DNA from: Salinadaptatus halalkaliphilus
Lineage (GTDB): Archaea; Halobacteriota; Halobacteria; Halobacteriales; Natrialbaceae
Length of the DNA: 64,000 nt
Direction: 5' to 3'
Assembly (NCBI RefSeq): GCF_006543045.1
Contig: NZ_RBZW01000058.1
Coordinates: 1-64,000 of the forward strand
Part shown: positions 7,830-63,075 of the stretch, piece by piece
How positions within the stretch are numbered: position 1 is the first letter of the stretch
Layout of the letters: each line of letters opens with the position of its first letter
Notes under the pieces: generated by a model
The model's database searches: none
Seen by the model: only the letters and a program-made list of their open reading frames with translations
Told to the model about the DNA's origin: nothing
Position numbers and translations under genes: made by a program

Positions 7830-7914
7830 TCAGACGGCCTGCTGTGCGTCAGTGCCGGCCAGCCCGCGACACGGCTGCGGTTGGACCGGGACATCGGTAC
7901 GGCAGTCCGTCTCA
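7830..7914 (-). repeat. Palindromic element, family A (copy A2)
   Basis: Ends are TCAGACGGCCTGCTGTG and GGTACGGCAGTCCGTCTCA, imperfect inverted repeats. On the minus strand it starts TGAGACGGACTGCCGTACCG then ATGTCCCGG, closely matching the plus-strand copy at 20985. It directly abuts copy A3, forming a tandem pair. Confidence 0.6.
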
Positions 7915-7997
7915 TACGGATTACTGTAACGATTTACCGGCGCACCCGCCGCCCGGGTCACGGGTGCGCCGGAAATGACTTACAGTAAACCGTATCA
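7914..7997 (-). repeat. Palindromic element, family A (copy A3), terminator-like
   Basis: The best-preserved short copy. Its outer arms are TACGGATTACTGTAACG and the near-inverse ending CTTACAGTAAACCGTA. The inner arms CCGGCGCACCCG and CGGGTGCGCCGG form a perfect stem around a short GC-rich loop. Read on the minus strand it starts TGATACGG, and that TGA is the stop codon of the ThDP enzyme. In RNA this is a strong hairpin right after the stop codon, so a role in 3'-end formation or mRNA stability is plausible but not shown. Confidence 0.7.
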
Positions 7998-16322: not shown

Positions 16323-16514
16323 CTCGGATTGCTGTACCGGATGTCCCGGCGGTGAGTCGAACTGTGTGAGACGAGCCTCGGTCGAGGAGCGAAGCGAGTC
16401 AACCGGTGCAACCGCGACCGGGATGGTGGTTGCGCTGGAACTGACTTATACTGTCTGTACATCGTTGCAGTCGTTACTATAATTCTGTCCGACAGTATAC
16501 AGTAACCCGTATCA
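16320..16514 (+). repeat. Palindromic element, family A, long form (copy A5), interrupted
   Basis: Starts at the stop of the GCS2 gene with CTCGGATTGCTGTACCG and ends CAGTAACCCGTATCA. The core of about 120 bp is almost the same as that of copy A6 at 20985-21126, including GTGAGTCGAACTGTGTGAGA and AGCGAAGCGAGTCAACCGG. The right arm is split by a 51-bp family B element at 16448-16498; removing it rejoins CTTA with CAGTAACCCGTATCA, the normal end. Confidence 0.7.
16448..16498 (+). mobile_element. MITE-like element, family B, 51-bp deletion form
   Basis: Inverted ends ATACTGTC and GACAGTAT flank a 35-bp interior. The right 16 bases TTCTGTCCGACAGTAT are the same as one end of the 109-bp elements at 55282 and 62457. 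It sits inside repeat A5, so it arrived after that element. The TATA context at both junctions leaves the 2-bp target duplication (TA or AT) ambiguous. Confidence 0.65.
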
Positions 16515-55025: not shown

Positions 55026-55223
55026 ATGGATCGTCGTCAACGAGTCGTTGTGGGACTGCTCTGGGTCGGGGTCGCCGCCTTAATGTCGGTGACGCTCGAT
55101 CTACGTGCCCTGCCGTCGCTGAGTGCACTCGCCAGCCTGTTCGTCGTTCTGGTCGCGCTGTTTCTGGCCGTCGTCTACCTGTTCGATCCGTGGGGCGTGC
55201 TCGAGCGCCAGCCGTTTCACTGA
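55026..55223 (+). CDS. Small membrane protein
   Basis: A 65-aa protein, MDRRQRVVVGLLWVGVAALMSV..., with two hydrophobic helices (VVVGLLWVGVAALMSVTLDL and ASLFVVLVALFLAVVYLF). The basic N-terminus and the tail DPWGVLERQPFH point to a two-span protein. Family unknown. It lies 47 nt after the Fe-S protein and could be a minimal anchor, though it does not resemble NrfD. It ends 58 nt before the family B element at the rearrangement boundary. Confidence 0.6.
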   Translation: MDRRQRVVVGLLWVGVAALMSVTLDLRALPSLSALASLFVVLVALFLAVVYLFDPWGVLERQPFH

Positions 55224-55281
55224 CCGGGCGCGGTGGGGGATCGAGGAGTTGCGAACGGATCGACAGCAACGGCGGGAGTTT

Positions 55282-55390
55282 ATACTGTCGGACAGAAGTC
55301 AGTGAAACGTCGGTCGCGAATTCGCGGCCGTCCTTACGGTGACGGCCGCAGTACTGCGACCGATCGTTGAATAGTTCTGTCCAACAGTAT
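55282..55390 (+). mobile_element. MITE-like element, family B, 109 bp (left copy)
   Basis: Terminal inverted repeats ATACTGTCGGACAGAA and TTCTGTCCAACAGTAT bound a GC-rich interior with a large hairpin (GCGGCCGTC...GACGGCCGC). It is 109/109 identical to the inverse of 62457-62565. There is no ORF inside, so it needs a transposase in trans. Inner edge joins the C-terminal half of yihY; outer edge joins the 65-aa gene's 3' region. Confidence 0.85.
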
Positions 55391-55736
55391 CAGTGCTGCC
55401 GTGCTCGCCGTGTTGCTGATCGGCGTCTTCGCTCCGATGTACTACCTCTTTCCCGAACCCACTGTCTCGGTCGGCGAGATCCTCCCGGGGACGGTCTTCG
55501 CCGCGCTGTCCTGGACCGTTCTCGCCGTCGGCTTCCGGATCTACGTCGCGACCTCCGACAGCGTCGCGCTCTTTGGCATCGCCGGCGCCGTCCTCATCAT
55601 CTTGACCTGGGTCTATCTCGGCGGGTTCTGTCTGTTGCTCGGTGCGGTGCTAAACGCCGTCCTCGCCGACCGCGTCGATCCCGAAACGGAGTGGATACCG
55701 ATGGATCAGGTGTGGTCGACATCCGATCGCCAGTAA
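55391..55736 (+). pseudogene. C-terminal half of YihY/BrkB family protein
   Basis: Reads from the family B element as SISAAVLAVLLIGVFAPMYY..., then FPEPTVSVGEILPGTVFAALSWTVLAVGFRIYVA and AGAVLIILTWVYLGGFCLLLGAVLNAVLADR, the last three membrane helices and the conserved end of YihY/BrkB. It lacks the N-terminal half. That half is at 62566-63075 on the other strand, next to the second element copy. A GTG at 55401 could start a 111-aa fragment, but the protein would be incomplete. If an AT dinucleotide at the element edges is counted as target duplication, joining the halves restores the frame V-L-I-S-A-A-V. Confidence 0.85.
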
Positions 55737-55815
55737 CGACCTCCCGTCGATTCACCAGTGAGATTACTGCAAGCGACCGGTGGATTCTATCGTCACGACC
55801 CCGTAGGTCCGACGA

Positions 55816-58707
55816 ATGGCTATCGGACGGACCGACACGGAGACGACAGTGCTGGTCGTCGAGCGCGAGGAACAGACGGCGATCGCGGCGGCAACAGCCC
55901 GTGCTCGAGATGCCGCCAGTATAGACACCGTACAGTCGGTCTCGAACGTCGAGACGGCACTCGAGACGCTCGACGAGCGGCCCGTCGACTGTCTCTGTAC
56001 GGCGGCGACGCTCGCCGACGGGAGTGGATTCGATCTCCTCGAAGCGGTGACCGGTCCGGACCGACACTGTCCTGTCGTCTTCGTTCCCGAAGACGGGACC
56101 GAATCACTCGCCAGCGAGGCGGTCGCCGCGGGCGCCAGTGAGTACGTCTCCCGCGACCGGCCGGCGGGAGATCTGGCCGATGCGATCGAGCGAGCGATCG
56201 CCACCGGGCGACGACGGCGCGACCGAACCGAGCGCGCACGGCAGTTCGGCGCCGTGTTCGACGACGCCGAGAGCTACGCCTGGGTACTCGAGCCCGACGG
56301 GAGCGTGCGTCGAGCGAACGACGTTGCGCTGACGGCGATCGACGCGACGGCGGGAGATGTCCGCGGCCGACCGTTCGTCGATCTCCCGTGGTGGGACGGT
56401 ATCGAGGCCGATGGACCGCTTCGCACAGCCCTCGAGAGGGCAGCCGGTGGGAACGTGGCCCGCAGCGAGGTCACCGCAGACTGCGATCACCGGTCGGATA
56501 CTCCTCGGACGCTCGAGGTGACAGTTCGCCCGGTTCGCGACGACGCCGGGACGATCGTCTCGCTACTCGCGCGGGCGACCGACATCACGGATCGCGCCGA
56601 ACTCGAGGCGGAGTTGCGCGCCTCCGAGGAACTCCATCGGGTGACGCTGAACAACATGACCGATACGGTTCTCATTACGGACGACGAGGGGGCATTCACT
56701 TACGTCTGTCCGAACGTCCACTTCATCTTCGGGTACGACGACGAGGAAATCTACGAGATGGGATCGATCGACGACCTGCTCGGTCCCGACCTCTTCGACC
56801 GCGAGGAACTCGCGGCGGACGGCGTCCTGACGAACATCGAGTGTACGGCGACCGACAAGGCGGGTCGCGAGCACACGTTGCTCGTCAACGTCCGCGAGGT
56901 GTCGATTCAGGACGGGACGATCCTCTACAGCTGTCGTGACGTGACGATGCGAAAGCGCCGGGACGACGCGCTGACGGCGTTGCACCGAACGGCTCGCGAA
57001 CTGCTGTACGCGGAGACCGACCGCGAGATCGCAACCGTCGTGACCGACGATGCGGCCGACATTCTCGACTGCGACGCAAGCGGCGTCTACCTCTTCGATA
57101 CCGACGAAAACGTTCTGCGGCCGGCCGCACAGTCCGCCGGAATGAACGAGCTTCACGGCCCGCTGTCATCCCACCGGGCCGCCGACGCGACGCTTCCCGG
57201 CGATGTCTACCTCGAGGGCGAAAACCGATTTGTCACTGATCTTCGATCCACCGACGCGTTTTCGAACCCGACTAGCGATCTCCGAAGCGCCGCGTTCGTC
57301 CCGCTTGGCGATCACGGCGTCTTTCTCGCGGGATCGGACACCGTCGACGCGTTCGACGATGTCACCAAAGAAGTCACCGATCTGCTTGCGGCGACCGCCG
57401 AGGCGGCCCTCGACCGCGTCGAGCGCGAACGACGACTTCGCGAACGGGATCGAGAGCTCAAACGACAGAACAAGCGACTCACACGCCTCGATCAGGTCAA
57501 CGAGATCATCCGCGAGATCGACCAGGCGCTGGTGCGAGCGGAAACCCGCGAGGAGATCGAGGCGGCGATCTGTGATCGGCTGACTGCCGACGATCGCTTT
57601 GATTTCGCGTGGATCGGCGCGGCCGATACCGGTTCTGACCTCCTCGAGTTGCGCGCCGTCAGCGGCACCGACGAGGGCCGAGAGTACTTAGACGCCGTCT
57701 CACTCGAGGGCGACGCAGCCGAACCCGCCGTCGAGACGGCACGAACGGGCGAAGTGACCGTGGTCGGGAACGTCGCCGACGGCCTGCACGACCAGCCCTG
57801 GCGGTCGGCAGCGCTCACGCGGGAGTACCAATCGGTCGTCAGCGTCCCACTGTCCTACGACGAATTCACCTACGGCGTACTCACCGTCTACGCCGACCGA
57901 CCGGGTGCCTTCGACGAGGTGAGCCAGACTGTGCTGGCCGAGCTCGGAGAGACGGTCGCCTCGGCTATCGCGGCCGTCGAACGCAAGCGAGCGCTCCTCT
58001 CGAGCGTGAGCACGCGCCTCGAGTTTACGGTCGCGGACGAGCAGTTCGTCTTCACACGGCTGGCGCGACGTGCGGACTGCACCGTCTCGTTCGACGGCGG
58101 CGTCCGCCAGCACGAGGACGGCGCGACGGTGTTCGTTACCGTCGAGGGCGCACCGCCCGAGTCGATCGTGCACGCGGCGGCCGACCTCCTCGCCGTCGAG
58201 GACGCACGCGTCATCGACGACGGTAGGAGTGGCGATGGGGGTGATGGGGGGGCCGATGGCGGGACCGTCCGTCTGCGCTTTGCACCGCCGTTTCTCGCGC
58301 TTCAACTCGCCGATCACGGGGTCCTGTTGCGCCGGGTCGAAGCAACACCGTCGGGGGCCGATGTCGTCGTCGACGTTCCGAGCGCCGTCGACGCCAGAGA
58401 GAGTGCCGACATCGTCTCGAACACGTTCGCAGACGTCGAGCTCCGGTCGAAACGCCGCGTCGAACGAACGACGGCCCGGGACCTGCGGTCGGCACTGCTC
58501 GACCGGCTCACCGATCGCCAACTCGAGGTCATCCAGTTAGCGTACTACAGCGGCTACTTCGAGACGCCGCGGGAGCGTTCTGGCGAGGAGATTGCGACGA
58601 TGCTCGACATTTCCCCGGCTGCGTTCTACCGCCACAACCGAACCGTCCAGCGGAAGCTCTTTGCGATCCTGTTCGACGAGCTCGGACTTCCGGCAAGTGC
58701 TGCCTGA
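55816..58707 (+). CDS. Bat-type multi-sensor transcriptional regulator (REC-like/PAS/GAF/HTH)
   Basis: A 963-aa protein. Residues 1-135 form a receiver-like fold (TTVLVVEREEQTA...). Then a first PAS (from AVFDDAESYAWVLEPDGSV), a second PAS (LHRVTLNNMTDTVLITDDEGAFTYVCPNVHFIFGYDDEEI) and a GAF domain (ARELLYAETDREIATVVTDDA). A coiled linker (LKRQNKRLTRLDQVNEIIREI) precedes a second GAF (CDRLTADDRFDFAWIGAAD). The bacterio-opsin activator region follows, and the C-terminal HTH is LTDRQLEVIQLAYYSGYFETPRERSGEEIATMLDISPAAFYRH. No His kinase domain is seen, so it probably senses ligand or redox directly. The receiver-like part lacks an obvious phospho-Asp. It lies at the left of the inverted segment. 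Confidence 0.9.
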   Translation: MAIGRTDTETTVLVVEREEQTAIAAATARARDAASIDTVQSVSNVETALETLDERPVDCLCTAATLADGSGFDLLEAVTGPDRHCPVVFVPEDGTESLASEAVAAGASEYVSRDRPAGDLADAIERAIATGRRRRDRTERARQFGAVFDDAESYAWVLEPDGSVRRANDVALTAIDATAGDVRGRPFVDLPWWDGIEADGPLRTALERAAGGNVARSEVTADCDHRSDTPRTLEVTVRPVRDDAGTIVSLLARATDITDRAELEAELRASEELHRVTLNNMTDTVLITDDEGAFTYVCPNVHFIFGYDDEEIYEMGSIDDLLGPDLFDREELAADGVLTNIECTATDKAGREHTLLVNVREVSIQDGTILYSCRDVTMRKRRDDALTALHRTARELLYAETDREIATVVTDDAADILDCDASGVYLFDTDENVLRPAAQSAGMNELHGPLSSHRAADATLPGDVYLEGENRFVTDLRSTDAFSNPTSDLRSAAFVPLGDHGVFLAGSDTVDAFDDVTKEVTDLLAATAEAALDRVERERRLRERDRELKRQNKRLTRLDQVNEIIREIDQALVRAETREEIEAAICDRLTADDRFDFAWIGAADTGSDLLELRAVSGTDEGREYLDAVSLEGDAAEPAVETARTGEVTVVGNVADGLHDQPWRSAALTREYQSVVSVPLSYDEFTYGVLTVYADRPGAFDEVSQTVLAELGETVASAIAAVERKRALLSSVSTRLEFTVADEQFVFTRLARRADCTVSFDGGVRQHEDGATVFVTVEGAPPESIVHAAADLLAVEDARVIDDGRSGDGGDGGADGGTVRLRFAPPFLALQLADHGVLLRRVEATPSGADVVVDVPSAVDARESADIVSNTFADVELRSKRRVERTTARDLRSALLDRLTDRQLEVIQLAYYSGYFETPRERSGEEIATMLDISPAAFYRHNRTVQRKLFAILFDELGLPASAA

Positions 58708-58834
58708 CCCGTTCAATAGTGAACCTCCAGCTCATTTCGAGGCTAGTTATCTGACGAACACCTATATCCTAATATCCCTATTATATCTGGATACGACGAC
58801 CGCCGCGACGGGACTCGTCGTACCTACTCATACC

Positions 58835-58975
58835 ATGAAAGACATCAAACTGGACCCCGAGGAAGAATCGCTGTACGAGTGCTTCAGTTGTGGCACTGTC
58901 GTTCGCGCACCGACATCAGGGACGTGCCCGGATTGTGGCGCAGACATGCGGAATCGTCAGATGCCCATCGAATAG
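58835..58975 (+). CDS. 46-aa rubrerythrin-like zinc-ribbon protein
   Basis: A second 46-aa zinc-ribbon miniprotein: [20 protein letters not shown], with CxxC at about residues 16-19 and a second pair in [13 protein letters not shown]. Family name usually rubrerythrin-like domain protein. It has the same size and Cys spacing as 108-248. The ATG 58835 is preceded by an AT-rich promoter region (TTATAT at about 58780). It ends 2 nt before gdh; the pair may be one transcript, which would be informative about its role. Confidence 0.8.
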
Positions 58976-58977
58976 CG

Positions 58978-60285
58978 ATGGCCTCCAACGAGCGTTCTTC
59001 GGTCGCCGCCACCGAAGAGCCATCCGACTCCGAACCGGAAACCGCCCTCGAGACGGCCCGGAGACAACTGGCCCGCGCGGCCTCAAGTCTCGAGATCGAC
59101 GACGCCGTTCGGGAGCGGCTGGAGCATCCGACTGCAGTCCACGAGGTGACGATCCCGCTCGAGCGCGACGACGGCAGCGTCGACGTGTTTACGGGCTATC
59201 GCGCCCACCACGATAGCGTTCGCGGCCCCCACAAGGGCGGGCTCCGATATCACCCCGGTGTGACACGGGACGAATGCGTCGGACTCGCGATGTGGATGAC
59301 CTGGAAGTGTGCCGTCATGGATCTGCCCTTCGGCGGCGCGAAAGGGGGTATCGTCGTCGATCCGAAGTCATTGAGCCGCGACGAAAAGGAACGTCTCACC
59401 CGCCGATTCACCCAGGAGGTCCGCGCCGTCATCGGCCCGACGAAAGACATTCCCGCACCCGATATGGGCACCGATCCGGCGACGATGGGCTGGATTATGG
59501 ACGCCTACAGCATGCAAGAGGGTGAAACGGTCCCGGGCGTCGTCACCGGAAAGCCACCCATCGTCGGCGGTTCGAAAGGCCGCGAGGAGGCCCCGGGTCG
59601 CAGCGTCGCTATCGTCACCCGCGAAACCTGTAAGTACTACGACTACCCACTCGAGGAGACGACCGTCGCCGTCCAGGGCTTCGGTAGCGTCGGTGCCAGC
59701 GCCGCCCGCCTACTGGATGCATGGGGTGGGACAGTCGTAGCCGTCAGCGACGTCAACGGCGGGATCTACGATCCCGATGGAATCGACGTGGCTGCGATTC
59801 CGTCTCACGACGAAGAACCCGAAGCGGTCACGAGCTACGCCGAGAAAACCGACGTTACCCGTCTGTCGAACGAGGAACTGCTCACACTCGACGTCGATGT
59901 CCTCGCACCCTCGGCGGTCGGCAACGTCCTCACCACGGACAACGCCGACGACATCCAGGCCGACATCGTCGTCGAGGGTGCAAACGGACCGACGACCTTC
60001 GCCGCTGACGCAATTTTGGAGGAGCGCGGCATCCACGTGATCCCGGATATCCTCGCCAACGCCGGCGGCGTCACCGTCAGCTACTTCGAGTGGCTCCAGG
60101 ACATCAACCGACGCGCCTGGCCACTCGAGCGAGTCAACACCGAACTCGAAGAGGAGATGATCGCCGCCTGGGACGCCCTCCGCGAGGAGGTCGAAGCCCG
60201 CGACGTGACCTGGCGAAATGCAGCCTACGTCGTCGCCCTCTCTCGAATCGCCGAGGCACACGAGGTCCGCGGACTCTGGCCCTGA
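58978..60285 (+). CDS. gdhA: Glutamate dehydrogenase
   Basis: A 435-aa enzyme (Glu + NAD(P)+ to 2-oxoglutarate + NH4+). [44 protein letters not shown], with the catalytic Lys in GGAKGG, is near residues 85-128. [17 protein letters not shown] is the Rossmann loop near residues 222-238. The N-terminal 40 residues ([18 protein letters not shown]) are acidic and disordered. Coenzyme preference is not readable. Start at 58978, 2 nt after the zinc-ribbon stop. Its TGA stop is at the head of a solitary family A end (TGATACGGACTGCTGTA at 60283). Confidence 0.96.
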
Positions 60286-60339
60286 TACGGACTGCTGTAT
60301 GTGAGAATCTTTTTGCGCGCCCCCGACCGACTCGAGTGC

Positions 60340-60750
60340 GTGCGACTCCTGCAGTATCCGGGCGACGCCACCGGATCCGATGGGTCGGCCGACGAGGGTT
60401 CGGAACGGACCGCCAGCGACGGGACCGTGCTGGCGACGGACGTCGACGTCGCGGACTCGTTCGTCAGTCAGACCCGCGGCCTCATGGGAAAACGGAGGCT
60501 GCCCGACTCCTACGCGCTCGTGTTCCGGTTCGATACGACGAAAACCCGCGACGTACACATGCTGTTCGTCTTCGTCTCGCTCGACGTTCTCTGGATTGCA
60601 GACGGGGTTGTCACGCGCGTCGAGCGACTCCGGCCCTGGCGCGGATTCGCCCGCGAGGAGGCAGATTGCATCGTCGAACTCCCCGCAGGCACCGCCGACG
60701 GCGTCGAACCTGGCGATCGAATCGTCCTCGAGGACGAGACAACGGCCTAA
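60340..60750 (+). CDS. DUF192 family protein
   Basis: A 136-aa protein with the DUF192 core: TDVDVADSFVSQTRGLMGKRRLPDSYALVFRFDTTKTRDVHMLFVFVSLDVLWIADGVVTRVERLRPWRG then FAREEADCIVELPAGTADGVEPGDRI. The family is a beta-barrel of unknown role, in bacteria often secreted. GTG 60340 (MRLLQYPGD) is chosen because a TTTTTG element lies about 30 nt before it; GTG 60301 is an alternative. It follows gdh by 54 nt. Confidence 0.85.
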   Translation: MRLLQYPGDATGSDGSADEGSERTASDGTVLATDVDVADSFVSQTRGLMGKRRLPDSYALVFRFDTTKTRDVHMLFVFVSLDVLWIADGVVTRVERLRPWRGFAREEADCIVELPAGTADGVEPGDRIVLEDETTA

Positions 60751-60821
60751 CGTTGCTATGGAGTCCGCATCGTGCCGGACCGGCGGATTTAAGTCAGGGT
60801 GGTACAATAGCTTGAGATACA

Positions 60822-60908
60822 ATGGCACGAGATTCCGTCTCGACGCCGGACGAGGATAGAGGAAGTCGGGGCAACCCGGCTGGATGCGAAATTCAGCGAC
60901 GAACGTAG
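60822..60908 (+). promoter_or_regulatory. Leader region of the LeuA/CimA-like gene, with a short ORF and hairpin
   Basis: TTTAAG at 60788-60793 predicts transcription from about 60817. The first ATG in the message (60822) opens a 28-codon ORF, MARDSVSTPDEDRGSRG..., that ends in TAG before the enzyme frame. A seven-pair stem AGTCGGG-GCAA-CCCGGCT, with a GNRA loop, lies at 60864-60881. The LeuA-like frame starts 16 nt after this ORF, at TTG 60925. The set-up resembles a leader-peptide or structured leader that could control translation or transcription. Confidence 0.45.
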
Positions 60909-60924
60909 TCGCAGTTCATTACTC

Positions 60925-62457
60925 TTGCCTGTACACAACTCCGCCGCACAGACGATTCCATCGGATCGTACCGTCCGCCTTCTCGACACCACGCTTCGCG
61001 ACGGCGAACAAGCCCCCGGAGTCTCGCTTTCCCCCGACGAAAAGGTCGAGATCGCCCGCGGACTCGAGCGCGCCGGCGTCGCCGTCATCGAGGCCGGCAG
61101 TGCCTGTACCGGTGCGGGCGAACGCCAGGCCATCTCGCGAGTCACCGACCTCGACCTCGACGCCCGCGTCACGAGTTTCTGCCGAGGTATGAAAGGCGAT
61201 GTTGACCTCGCACTCGAGTGTGGCGTCGACGGCGTCCACATCGTCGTTCCATCGAGCGACCGTCACGTCGAGGAGAAAGTCGGCACCTCGCGAGGGGATA
61301 ACCTCGAGACGACCGCCGACCTCGTCGAGTACGCCACCGATCACGACCTCTGGGTCGAGGTTATCGGCGAGGACGGCTCCCGAGCCGACCTCGACTATCT
61401 CGAGCGACTGGCCGCAACGTCGCTCGAGGCGGGCGCCGACCGGTTCTGTTTCGCCGACACCGTCGGTCACACGGGCCCGGAACATACTCGCGAGGCCGTC
61501 TCCCGACTCGCCGAACTCGGTCCCGTCAGCGCTCACACGCACGACGACCTCGGGCTCGGCGTTACGAACGCACTCGCGGCCGTCGCCGCCGGCGCAGACA
61601 TGGTCCACTGCACCGTCAACGGCCTCGGCGAGCGCGCCGGCAACGTCGCTCTCGAGGAGGTCGCAATCTCGCTGTCGCACGTCTACGACGTCGAGACGCT
61701 CGAACTCGAGGAGTTGTACGATCTCGCCCAGATCGTCTCGCGGGCGACGGGTGTCCAACTCGCGCCGAACAAGGCCGTCATCGGCGAGAATGCCTTCACC
61801 CACGAGAGCGGAATCCACACCGACGGCACGCTCAAAGACGACAAGATGTACGAACCCTACGCGCCCGAAACCGTCGGGCGCGAACGCCGGCTCGCACTTG
61901 GTAAACACACCGGTCGCGCGGGCGTCGCCGCGACGCTCGAGGAACACGGCGTCGAGGCCAGCGAGGACGAGGTTGCCGAAATCGCCACCCGCGTCACGGA
62001 ACTGGGCGATCGCGGTCGGCGCGTGACCGACGCCGATCTGCTCGCGATCGCCGAGGACGTCGCCGGCGACGACCGCGAACGGGTCGTCGAACTGCGCGAT
62101 CTCAACGCGACCAGCGGCGGCGCCGTCCCCACCGCGAGCGTCCGCCTCAAGGTCGACGGCGAGGAACGCGTCGCCAGCGGCACCGGCTCCGGCCCGGTCG
62201 ACGCCGCCGTCTCCGCCGTGCGCCAGGCGCTCGGCTCGATGGCCGACGCCGAACTCGAGTCCTACCACGTCGACGCCGTCACCGGCGGTACCGACGCCGT
62301 CGTGACGGTCGAGGTGACGATGGTCCGGGACGACCGGTCGGTGACCGTCGCCAGAAGCGAGGCCGATATCACCCACGCGAGCGTCGAGGCGATGGTCGAC
62401 GCACTCGATCGCTTGCTCGCGACCGAATCCGAACCGCTCGCGCCGGCCGACGACTAA
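60925..62457 (+). CDS. 2-isopropylmalate/(R)-citramalate synthase family enzyme
   Basis: A 510-aa acyl-CoA Claisen condensing enzyme. LLDTTLRDGEQAPGVSLSPDEKVEIARGLERAGVAVIEAGSA is the catalytic start, HTHDDLGLGVTNALAAVAAGADMVHCTVNGLGERAGN holds the metal HxH. A C-terminal regulatory domain follows (ASVRLKVDGEERVASGTGSGPVDAAVSAV), as in LeuA and CimA. The choice between isopropylmalate, citramalate and homocitrate is not decided by sequence. It starts at TTG 60925 or at RTVRLLD, since the ATG-started frame of the leader is different. Its TAA stop abuts the family B element at 62457. Confidence 0.85.
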   Translation: MPVHNSAAQTIPSDRTVRLLDTTLRDGEQAPGVSLSPDEKVEIARGLERAGVAVIEAGSACTGAGERQAISRVTDLDLDARVTSFCRGMKGDVDLALECGVDGVHIVVPSSDRHVEEKVGTSRGDNLETTADLVEYATDHDLWVEVIGEDGSRADLDYLERLAATSLEAGADRFCFADTVGHTGPEHTREAVSRLAELGPVSAHTHDDLGLGVTNALAAVAAGADMVHCTVNGLGERAGNVALEEVAISLSHVYDVETLELEELYDLAQIVSRATGVQLAPNKAVIGENAFTHESGIHTDGTLKDDKMYEPYAPETVGRERRLALGKHTGRAGVAATLEEHGVEASEDEVAEIATRVTELGDRGRRVTDADLLAIAEDVAGDDRERVVELRDLNATSGGAVPTASVRLKVDGEERVASGTGSGPVDAAVSAVRQALGSMADAELESYHVDAVTGGTDAVVTVEVTMVRDDRSVTVARSEADITHASVEAMVDALDRLLATESEPLAPADD

Positions 62458-62565
62458 TACTGTTGGACAGAACTATTCAACGATCGGTCGCAGTACTGCG
62501 GCCGTCACCGTAAGGACGGCCGCGAATTCGCGACCGACGTTTCACTGACTTCTGTCCGACAGTAT
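62457..62565 (-). mobile_element. MITE-like element, family B, 109 bp (right copy)
   Basis: The exact inverse complement of 55282-55390 over all 109 bases. The inner edge touches the stop codon of the LeuA/CimA-like gene; the outer edge runs into the yihY N-terminal half on the minus strand. Perfect identity over 109 bp with inverted orientation makes these two copies a ready substrate for homologous inversion. Confidence 0.85.
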
Positions 62566-63075
62566 GAGCACCGTCGCGACGACGCCGCCGACGATGACCG
62601 AGATGCTCACGCCGATGACCCCCACAAGCACGACGCCGACGACAACCGTCGCGGTCACGAGAAGACCCTCGAGAAGCGTCACCACCGTCACCGTCGTCGC
62701 CGTATCGACGTACGACTGCTGTTTTCGACCACCGTAGACGTCGGTGAAAGCGCTGTTGACCGCCTGAAACAGCCGCACGGCACTCCAGGCGAAGATCACG
62801 ACGGCGAGTATCGCTGCCCCCGTGCGGTCGACGCCGGTTGCACCCTCGAGTCCGCCGTCGGTCAGCGTTCCCTCGAGCCCGGCCGCACTCTCGATCGCCG
62901 ACAGGAGCGGCTCGAGTGCGTCGGCGAGTGTGACGGCGACCAACGCGAGGATTGCTAGCGGAACGAGCGTGTTGAACCCGTGGTAGGCCAGCCCCGCGGA
63001 TTTGACGCTGATCTGTCGCTCACGGGCGACGGCGGCGACATCGCGAACGAACGCGAGCAGCCTCGAATCGATCAT
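62566..63075 (-). pseudogene. N-terminal half of YihY/BrkB family protein
   Basis: Reads MIDSRLLAFVRDVAAVARERQISVKSAGLAYHGFNTLVPLAIL, the amphipathic start and A-x-x-Y-H-x-F-N-x-L-x-P motif of the YihY/BrkB family. It then has AILAVVIFAWSAVRLFQAVNSAFTDVYGG and two further helices ending GVVATVL. The frame continues into the element (ILSDRSQ) and stops at TGA (62542-62544). The missing C-terminal helices are at 55391-55736. Family role is uncertain (membrane protein, formerly mis-called ribonuclease BN). Confidence 0.85.

Follow-up and report, generated by a model that had tools for sequence, protein, structure and literature searches.

Exchanged target duplications point to a 7-kb inversion between two copies of a short MITE-like element in Salinadaptatus halalkaliphilus

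Inversions of haloarchaeal DNA have been associated with mobile elements. An inversion by recombination between two IS elements is mentioned for Haloferax volcanii in an excerpt of PMC6063281 (citing Hawkins 2013), and ISH-associated inversions are mentioned for Halobacterium in an excerpt of PMC10264941 (citing Ng 1991). Short elements are also known from this group. As excerpted from PMC3119063, the MITEs of Haloquadratum walsbyi are short, multi-copy sequences with terminal inverted repeats and target duplications, and their parent transposase is sometimes not intact in the genome. The same excerpt describes SMR-A of Haloquadratum, an element of ~110 bp with prominent inverted repeats and many copies (up to 54), which makes no target duplication and inserts into other mobile elements. 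In the relevant portion of a review, MITEs are regarded as hotspots of homologous recombination (PMC10969869).

The locus considered here lies in a window of 64,000 nucleotides, the whole stretch of Salinadaptatus halalkaliphilus DNA that was analysed (contig NZ_RBZW01000058.1). It resembles the IS-mediated inversions, as these are excerpted from PMC6063281 and PMC10264941, in that DNA appears to have been inverted at inverted copies of a mobile element. The elements in those cases are IS elements; here the element is 107 bp long, and swapped 3-bp duplications make the event readable. The favored reading, which can be given a probability of roughly 0.8, is that a MITE inserted into yihY and exactly into the stop codon of leuA, and that homologous recombination between the two copies then inverted the DNA between them. 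The segment and its borders carry the following features.

55026..55223, plus strand: orf65, a small protein outside the left copy, ancestral convergent neighbor of leuA (gene order in relatives)
55283..55389, plus strand: left MITE copy, 107 bp between target duplications, 109 bp counting the flanking A and T
55392..55736, plus strand: yihY C-terminal part, 114 codons, open, with its own stop, inside the inverted segment (similarity to relatives)
55816..58707, plus strand: Bat-type regulator (response regulator, PAS, GAF, BAT, HTH_10), ancestral neighbor of yihY (Pfam)
58835..58975, plus strand: DUF7129 miniprotein, 46 aa (Pfam)
58978..60285, plus strand: glutamate dehydrogenase, gdh (Pfam)
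60301..60750, plus strand: DUF192 protein, ancestral neighbor of leuA (Pfam)
60845..60897, plus strand: leuA-Halobacteria leader RNA, intact (RF03001, 68.2 bits)
60925..62457, plus strand: LeuA-type enzyme, open frame, with the MITE at its stop codon (Pfam)
62458..62564, minus strand: right MITE copy, same sequence as the left copy
62566..63075, minus strand: yihY N-terminal part, 170 codons, YihY/BrkB membrane protein, open and running into the MITE (Pfam PF03631, E 7e-12)

The initial annotation had described two identical inverse elements of 109 bp, and direct comparison bears this out: the repeats at 55282-55390 (plus) and 62457-62565 (minus) agree at 109 of 109 positions in inverse orientation, with not one base of identity past either end. 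Its list of genes in the segment (Bat-type regulator, miniprotein, gdh, DUF192 and a LeuA-type enzyme) likewise agrees with Pfam. An inverted-repeat scan of the window with a threshold of ≥45 nt yielded six pairs, of which the MITE pair is the longest (120-nt arms, 97%) and the next-longest is 55 nt. The ends of the element, TACTGTYGGACAG, match as terminal inverted repeats at 14 of the first 15 positions, and a single strand is predicted to form one long hairpin (-35 kcal/mol vs a shuffle mean of -15.7 kcal/mol, z -7.3). The element is without a transposase gene and is too short for one. Its own genome (4.52 Mb, 77 contigs) contains 39 matches, including 24 full-length copies at 97-100%, four of which are identical in sequence, namely the focal pair and two copies elsewhere. 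Matches are also present in 63 of 124 other Natrialbaceae genomes (64 of 125 counting its own), where copy numbers are lower bounds since few candidates per genome were scored, and the best match outside the genome reaches 88-89%. Seven haloarchaeal plasmid records contain matches, and the phage records searched contain none.

Short length, terminal inverted repeats, multiple near-identical copies and a target duplication of fixed length are all found here, and the element is MITE-like. It can be likened to the MITEs of Haloquadratum walsbyi by description rather than by sequence, the duplication here being TNA (PMC3119063, in excerpt). It also resembles SMR-A, as excerpted from the same source, in its length, prominent inverted repeats and many copies, but the 107-bp MITE duplicates TNA whereas SMR-A produces no duplication.

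A trace of the event lies in the bases that flank the copies. When the flanks of the 24 full-length copies were lined up in element orientation, 21 showed T-n-A on both sides with the same n (TGA in 10, TCA in 7, TAA in 3 and TTA in 1), and therefore the unit is 107 bp and the target duplication is 3 bp (TNA). This comparison rules out a duplicated AT pair at each element edge, as had been supposed before. Matching duplications are absent only from the focal pair and from a copy at C12:8617. In a common orientation the flanks of the left focal copy are TTA..TCA and those of the right copy TCA..TTA, which is the scar expected from recombination between two such copies. Judged from their sequence, the focal flanks are two insertion duplications, TTA and TCA, that have each traded one half with the other. 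The four halves are assigned by copy-flank comparison as follows.

55280..55282, plus strand: TTA, one half of the leuA stop-codon duplication
55390..55392, plus strand: TCA, half of the duplication at the yihY site, today adjoining the left copy
62455..62457, plus strand: TAA, the leuA stop codon and other half of the leuA-site duplication
62565..62567, plus strand: TGA, which reads TCA on the strand of yihY, the remaining half of the duplication at that site

Mismatched duplications also occur without a known partner, at C12:8617, L025 and L092, and this counts against over-reading the focal scar. The full-length copy at C12:8617-8725 (L014) has flanks TGA..TCA, and no reciprocal partner for it was found among the 24 full-length copies. 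When its flanking genes were followed, a gene of a relative was seen to end near the place of this element. Its mismatch represents either another recombinant or a point mutation; a single substitution would suffice. Four further copies have both ends but other lengths, and their duplications are matched in L026 and L027 and mismatched in L025 and L092. Separately, the copies in L025 and L026 (C22:136446-136637 and C28:100581-100771) are interrupted by nested hairpin elements of ~82 bp of a TACGG type.

The two halves of yihY lie beside the two copies as first annotated. The N-terminal half carries PF03631. A Pfam scan of the C-terminal half alone gave no match, but in all 16 relatives compared the corresponding part of yihY is 68-84% identical to it. 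Given a 3-bp duplication, the halves join in frame as V-L-S-A-A-V. An extra isoleucine at the join (V-L-I-S-A-A-V), which had followed from the presumed AT duplication, is ruled out by alignment, because no residue is present at the break in any of 29 distinct relatives. That alignment covered 36 loci, of which one (L202) is without yihY and 35 have both halves on one strand and in frame, six of them duplicates and one (L195) with an in-frame stop. Both halves are still open, and thus the break is probably recent. With a cut-off of E 1e-30, yihY of this type was found in 57 of the 125 family genomes, including this one, and not in the other 68, so the comparison draws on those genomes that have it.

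Gene order in relatives suggests how both borders were arranged before. In all 16 named relatives, which were found by the N-terminal half, the yihY halves are contiguous and are followed on the same strand by bat and the miniprotein gene; gdh also follows within the stretch covered in eight of them. Nineteen further loci, several from genomes that are also among the 16, have contiguous halves throughout (19/19), followed by the miniprotein gene in 19, bat in 18 and gdh in 14. In reading these loci and the orf65 regions, tblastn matches below 45% identity for leuA, 60% for gdh and 45% for bat were left out. Relatives thus carry a whole yihY that adjoins the same bat and miniprotein genes, and they do not bear out the refuting case named with the initial annotation, a whole yihY in a different place with no break here.

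For the other border, orf65 and DUF192 are convergent and ≤10 kb apart in 84 of 97 genomes that have both; in 10 exceptions they are not within 10 kb, and in three (G018, G019 and G020) they are close and not convergent. All 21 regions read have leuA in the space between the two, although these were chosen for closeness and the unbiased count is therefore 84/97. Another stretch of DNA, 1.7-3 kb long, separates orf65 from leuA in L167, L170 and L178. When positions 55390-62457 are flipped back, the order becomes orf65> MITE <leuA <DUF192 <gdh <miniprotein <bat <yihY-C MITE <yihY-N. To judge from these gene orders, this arrangement restores two ancestral neighborhoods together: one is yihY-bat-miniprotein, to which gdh is often added, and the other is orf65> <leuA <DUF192. 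Because a single genome of the genus was examined, the earlier state is reconstructed from other genera.

The second insertion lies at the end of leuA. The stop codon of this gene, TAA at 62455-62457, is the duplicated target itself, so that the duplication rebuilt the stop and leuA is open in both orientations. Sixty bp of 3' flank from 21 leuA genes of relatives contain no MITE end, and this indicates an insertion particular to this lineage, as far as sampled.

Taken in sequence, the favored course of events would begin with two insertions of a TNA-duplicating 107-bp MITE in this lineage. One would have broken yihY by entering at a TCA on the gene strand. The other would have entered leuA exactly at its stop codon, TAA as read in the gene and TTA on the opposite strand, and its duplication would have regenerated the stop. 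The two copies would then have been ~7 kb apart in inverse orientation, and homologous recombination between them could have flipped the 7,068 bases between the 107-bp units. Such a flip would have swapped the duplications, carried the yihY C-terminal part across to the opposite end, and reversed five whole genes (bat, the miniprotein gene, gdh, DUF192 and leuA with its leader) along with one gene fragment. An insertion into yihY followed by inversion had been proposed initially, and it is now supported by the gene order of relatives at both breakpoints and by the swapped duplications; we infer both the homologous step and the two separate insertions before it.

The scar alone is alike for homologous recombination and for replicative transposition of the MITE within the chromosome. 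In the latter case a single step would invert the DNA between the old and the new copy and split their duplications, and so would predict the same exchanged TTA and TCA and account for the 109/109 identity. A length of 109 bp is short for homologous recombination, which counts against that mechanism. The identity of the focal pair is not special, however, since two of the four copies that share the sequence lie elsewhere, and frequent replicative moves should have left more split pairs than are seen. Because 21 of the 22 other full-length copies have matching duplications and look like simple insertions, replicative transposition is disfavored and seems improbable. Similarly improbable is an inversion that exists only in the assembly, with a real MITE in yihY and reads misjoined across both 109-bp copies. 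The assembly is a draft in 77 contigs, it contains 24 near-identical full-length copies, and a double misjoin across an inverted repeat would look exactly like an inversion. Yet two reciprocal errors would be needed, the matching flanks of 21 of 22 other copies indicate that joins across the MITE are nearly always right, and every full-length copy is more than 500 bp away from a contig end (the smallest distance is 529 bp); these counts disfavor an assembly error.

Homologous recombination between two earlier insertions thus stands as the preferred explanation, and it would be compatible with a segment that flips frequently, both orientations coexisting as phase variation. The copies are still perfect and inverted, so recombination back is possible in principle. 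Against such a switch, no recombinase family was detected among ten proteins scanned around and inside the segment (three of which had no Pfam match of any kind), a flip would not mend yihY, in which the MITE persists in both orientations, and no on/off state is visible because the five whole genes keep their upstream DNA. Only one orientation is represented among the 24 full-length copies, and none of the 22 copies outside the focal pair has the un-inverted flanks. A frequent switch is accordingly very improbable, and the reversibility of the inversion is unproven.

The source of mobility for the MITE was sought in several ways. A 3-bp TNA duplication is a trait of the IS1031 group of the IS5 family, and the MITE shares it. 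No autonomous partner was found by searching its own genome for paired MITE ends; one pair 2.3 kb apart on contig C39 has unlike flanks. No IS with the MITE ends was found among 25 PF01609 loci of three genomes or among 21 PF13586/PF13358 loci of five genomes, where lone end-like matches alone occurred (L208/L221 and L220), and PF13586 itself was above the cut-off in none of five genomes. Another member of the Natrialbaceae, G099, has 257 MITE-end matches (≤1 mismatch) vs 78 in this genome and is a candidate host of an active transposase. Of 15 papers matched by four 12-base stretches of the MITE ends, none of the 10 listed was archaeal by title, and among titles on haloarchaeal MITEs and inversions none was recognized as describing the 107-bp MITE.

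A second family of TNA-targeting elements touches this segment at the joint between gdh and DUF192, which lie in blocks 16 bp apart in the window.

60286..60299, plus strand: TACGGACTGCTGTA, an exact match to the end of the second (TACGG-type) family; it follows the gdh stop TGA immediately, where the DUF192-leuA block is joined on

Of 56 genomes of relatives, 29 have yihY (the neighbor of gdh) and DUF192 on the same contig, one of these (G043) with a distance of at most 30 kb, and neither DUF192 nor leuA is nearby at 22 relative loci with the gdh end in view (duplicates included). The joint is therefore probably derived too, and an older rearrangement may have used a TACGG-type element there (60283-60301). 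The second-family end has 331 matches (≤1 mismatch) in this genome vs one for a reversed control. Similar ends, read by eye from the flanks, occur at the leuA stop codon in L177 and L184. The gdh flanks of relatives gave no such end in 22 tested; in L040, TACGG follows the gdh stop without a full second-family end. Elsewhere in the window, at 16449-16511, an isolated TACTGTCGGACAG end and a TACGG element end stand directly next to each other and seem to be remnants of both element families. The second inverted repeat of the window (7886-7940 and 20959-21013; 55 nt, 91%, 13 kb apart) consists of the starts of TACGG elements plus 29 bp outside them that are common to both places.

The position of these ends relative to genes was examined for 80 of the 331 matches (loci L227-L306, contigs up to C42), seven of the 100 listed having been dropped manually (in part near contig ends, in part with no reason recorded) together with the last 13. 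Of these ends, 77 follow TNA. Ends fall exactly on a stop codon in 15 of 80 cases vs 35 of 1,311 non-coding TNA sites in the same flanks (Fisher p 8e-9), although the 80 include neighbors and pairs of ends from the same element and are not fully independent. For sites ≤150 bp downstream of a gene end, the counts are 15/28 vs 23/123 (p 3e-4). Gene calls in all these comparisons came from a simple script, adjusted to the composition of haloarchaeal genes, that missed two small genes of this region. Ends of the first family, the MITE, are on stop codons in 3 of 48 cases, the focal leuA copy among the three, and outside genes the counts are 3/43 vs 11/894 (p 0.02). Ends of TACGG elements are thus enriched exactly at gene stop codons, and insertion preference and selection are indistinguishable as causes. 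In literature searches no title listed concerned such targeting of stop codons; as evidence that it has not been described, this is weak. One speculative and rather doubtful extension is that haloarchaeal TNA mini-elements settle at stop codons because their duplication rebuilds TAA or TGA, and thereby seed near-identical recombination sites at gene ends, so that breaks would fall between genes; the leuA breakpoint and the gdh-DUF192 joint would then be two products.

The inversion is clean and easy to read, but as genome rearrangements go it is of an ordinary kind. It would indicate that a non-coding element of 107 bp, besides full IS elements, can reshape an archaeal chromosome, with the insertion sites and the exchange step legible in scars of 3 bp. 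Testing for exchanged duplications is simple and could be extended to other MITE families to count rearrangements. If the enrichment at stop codons is general, it would help to explain how hundreds of such elements persist at low cost.
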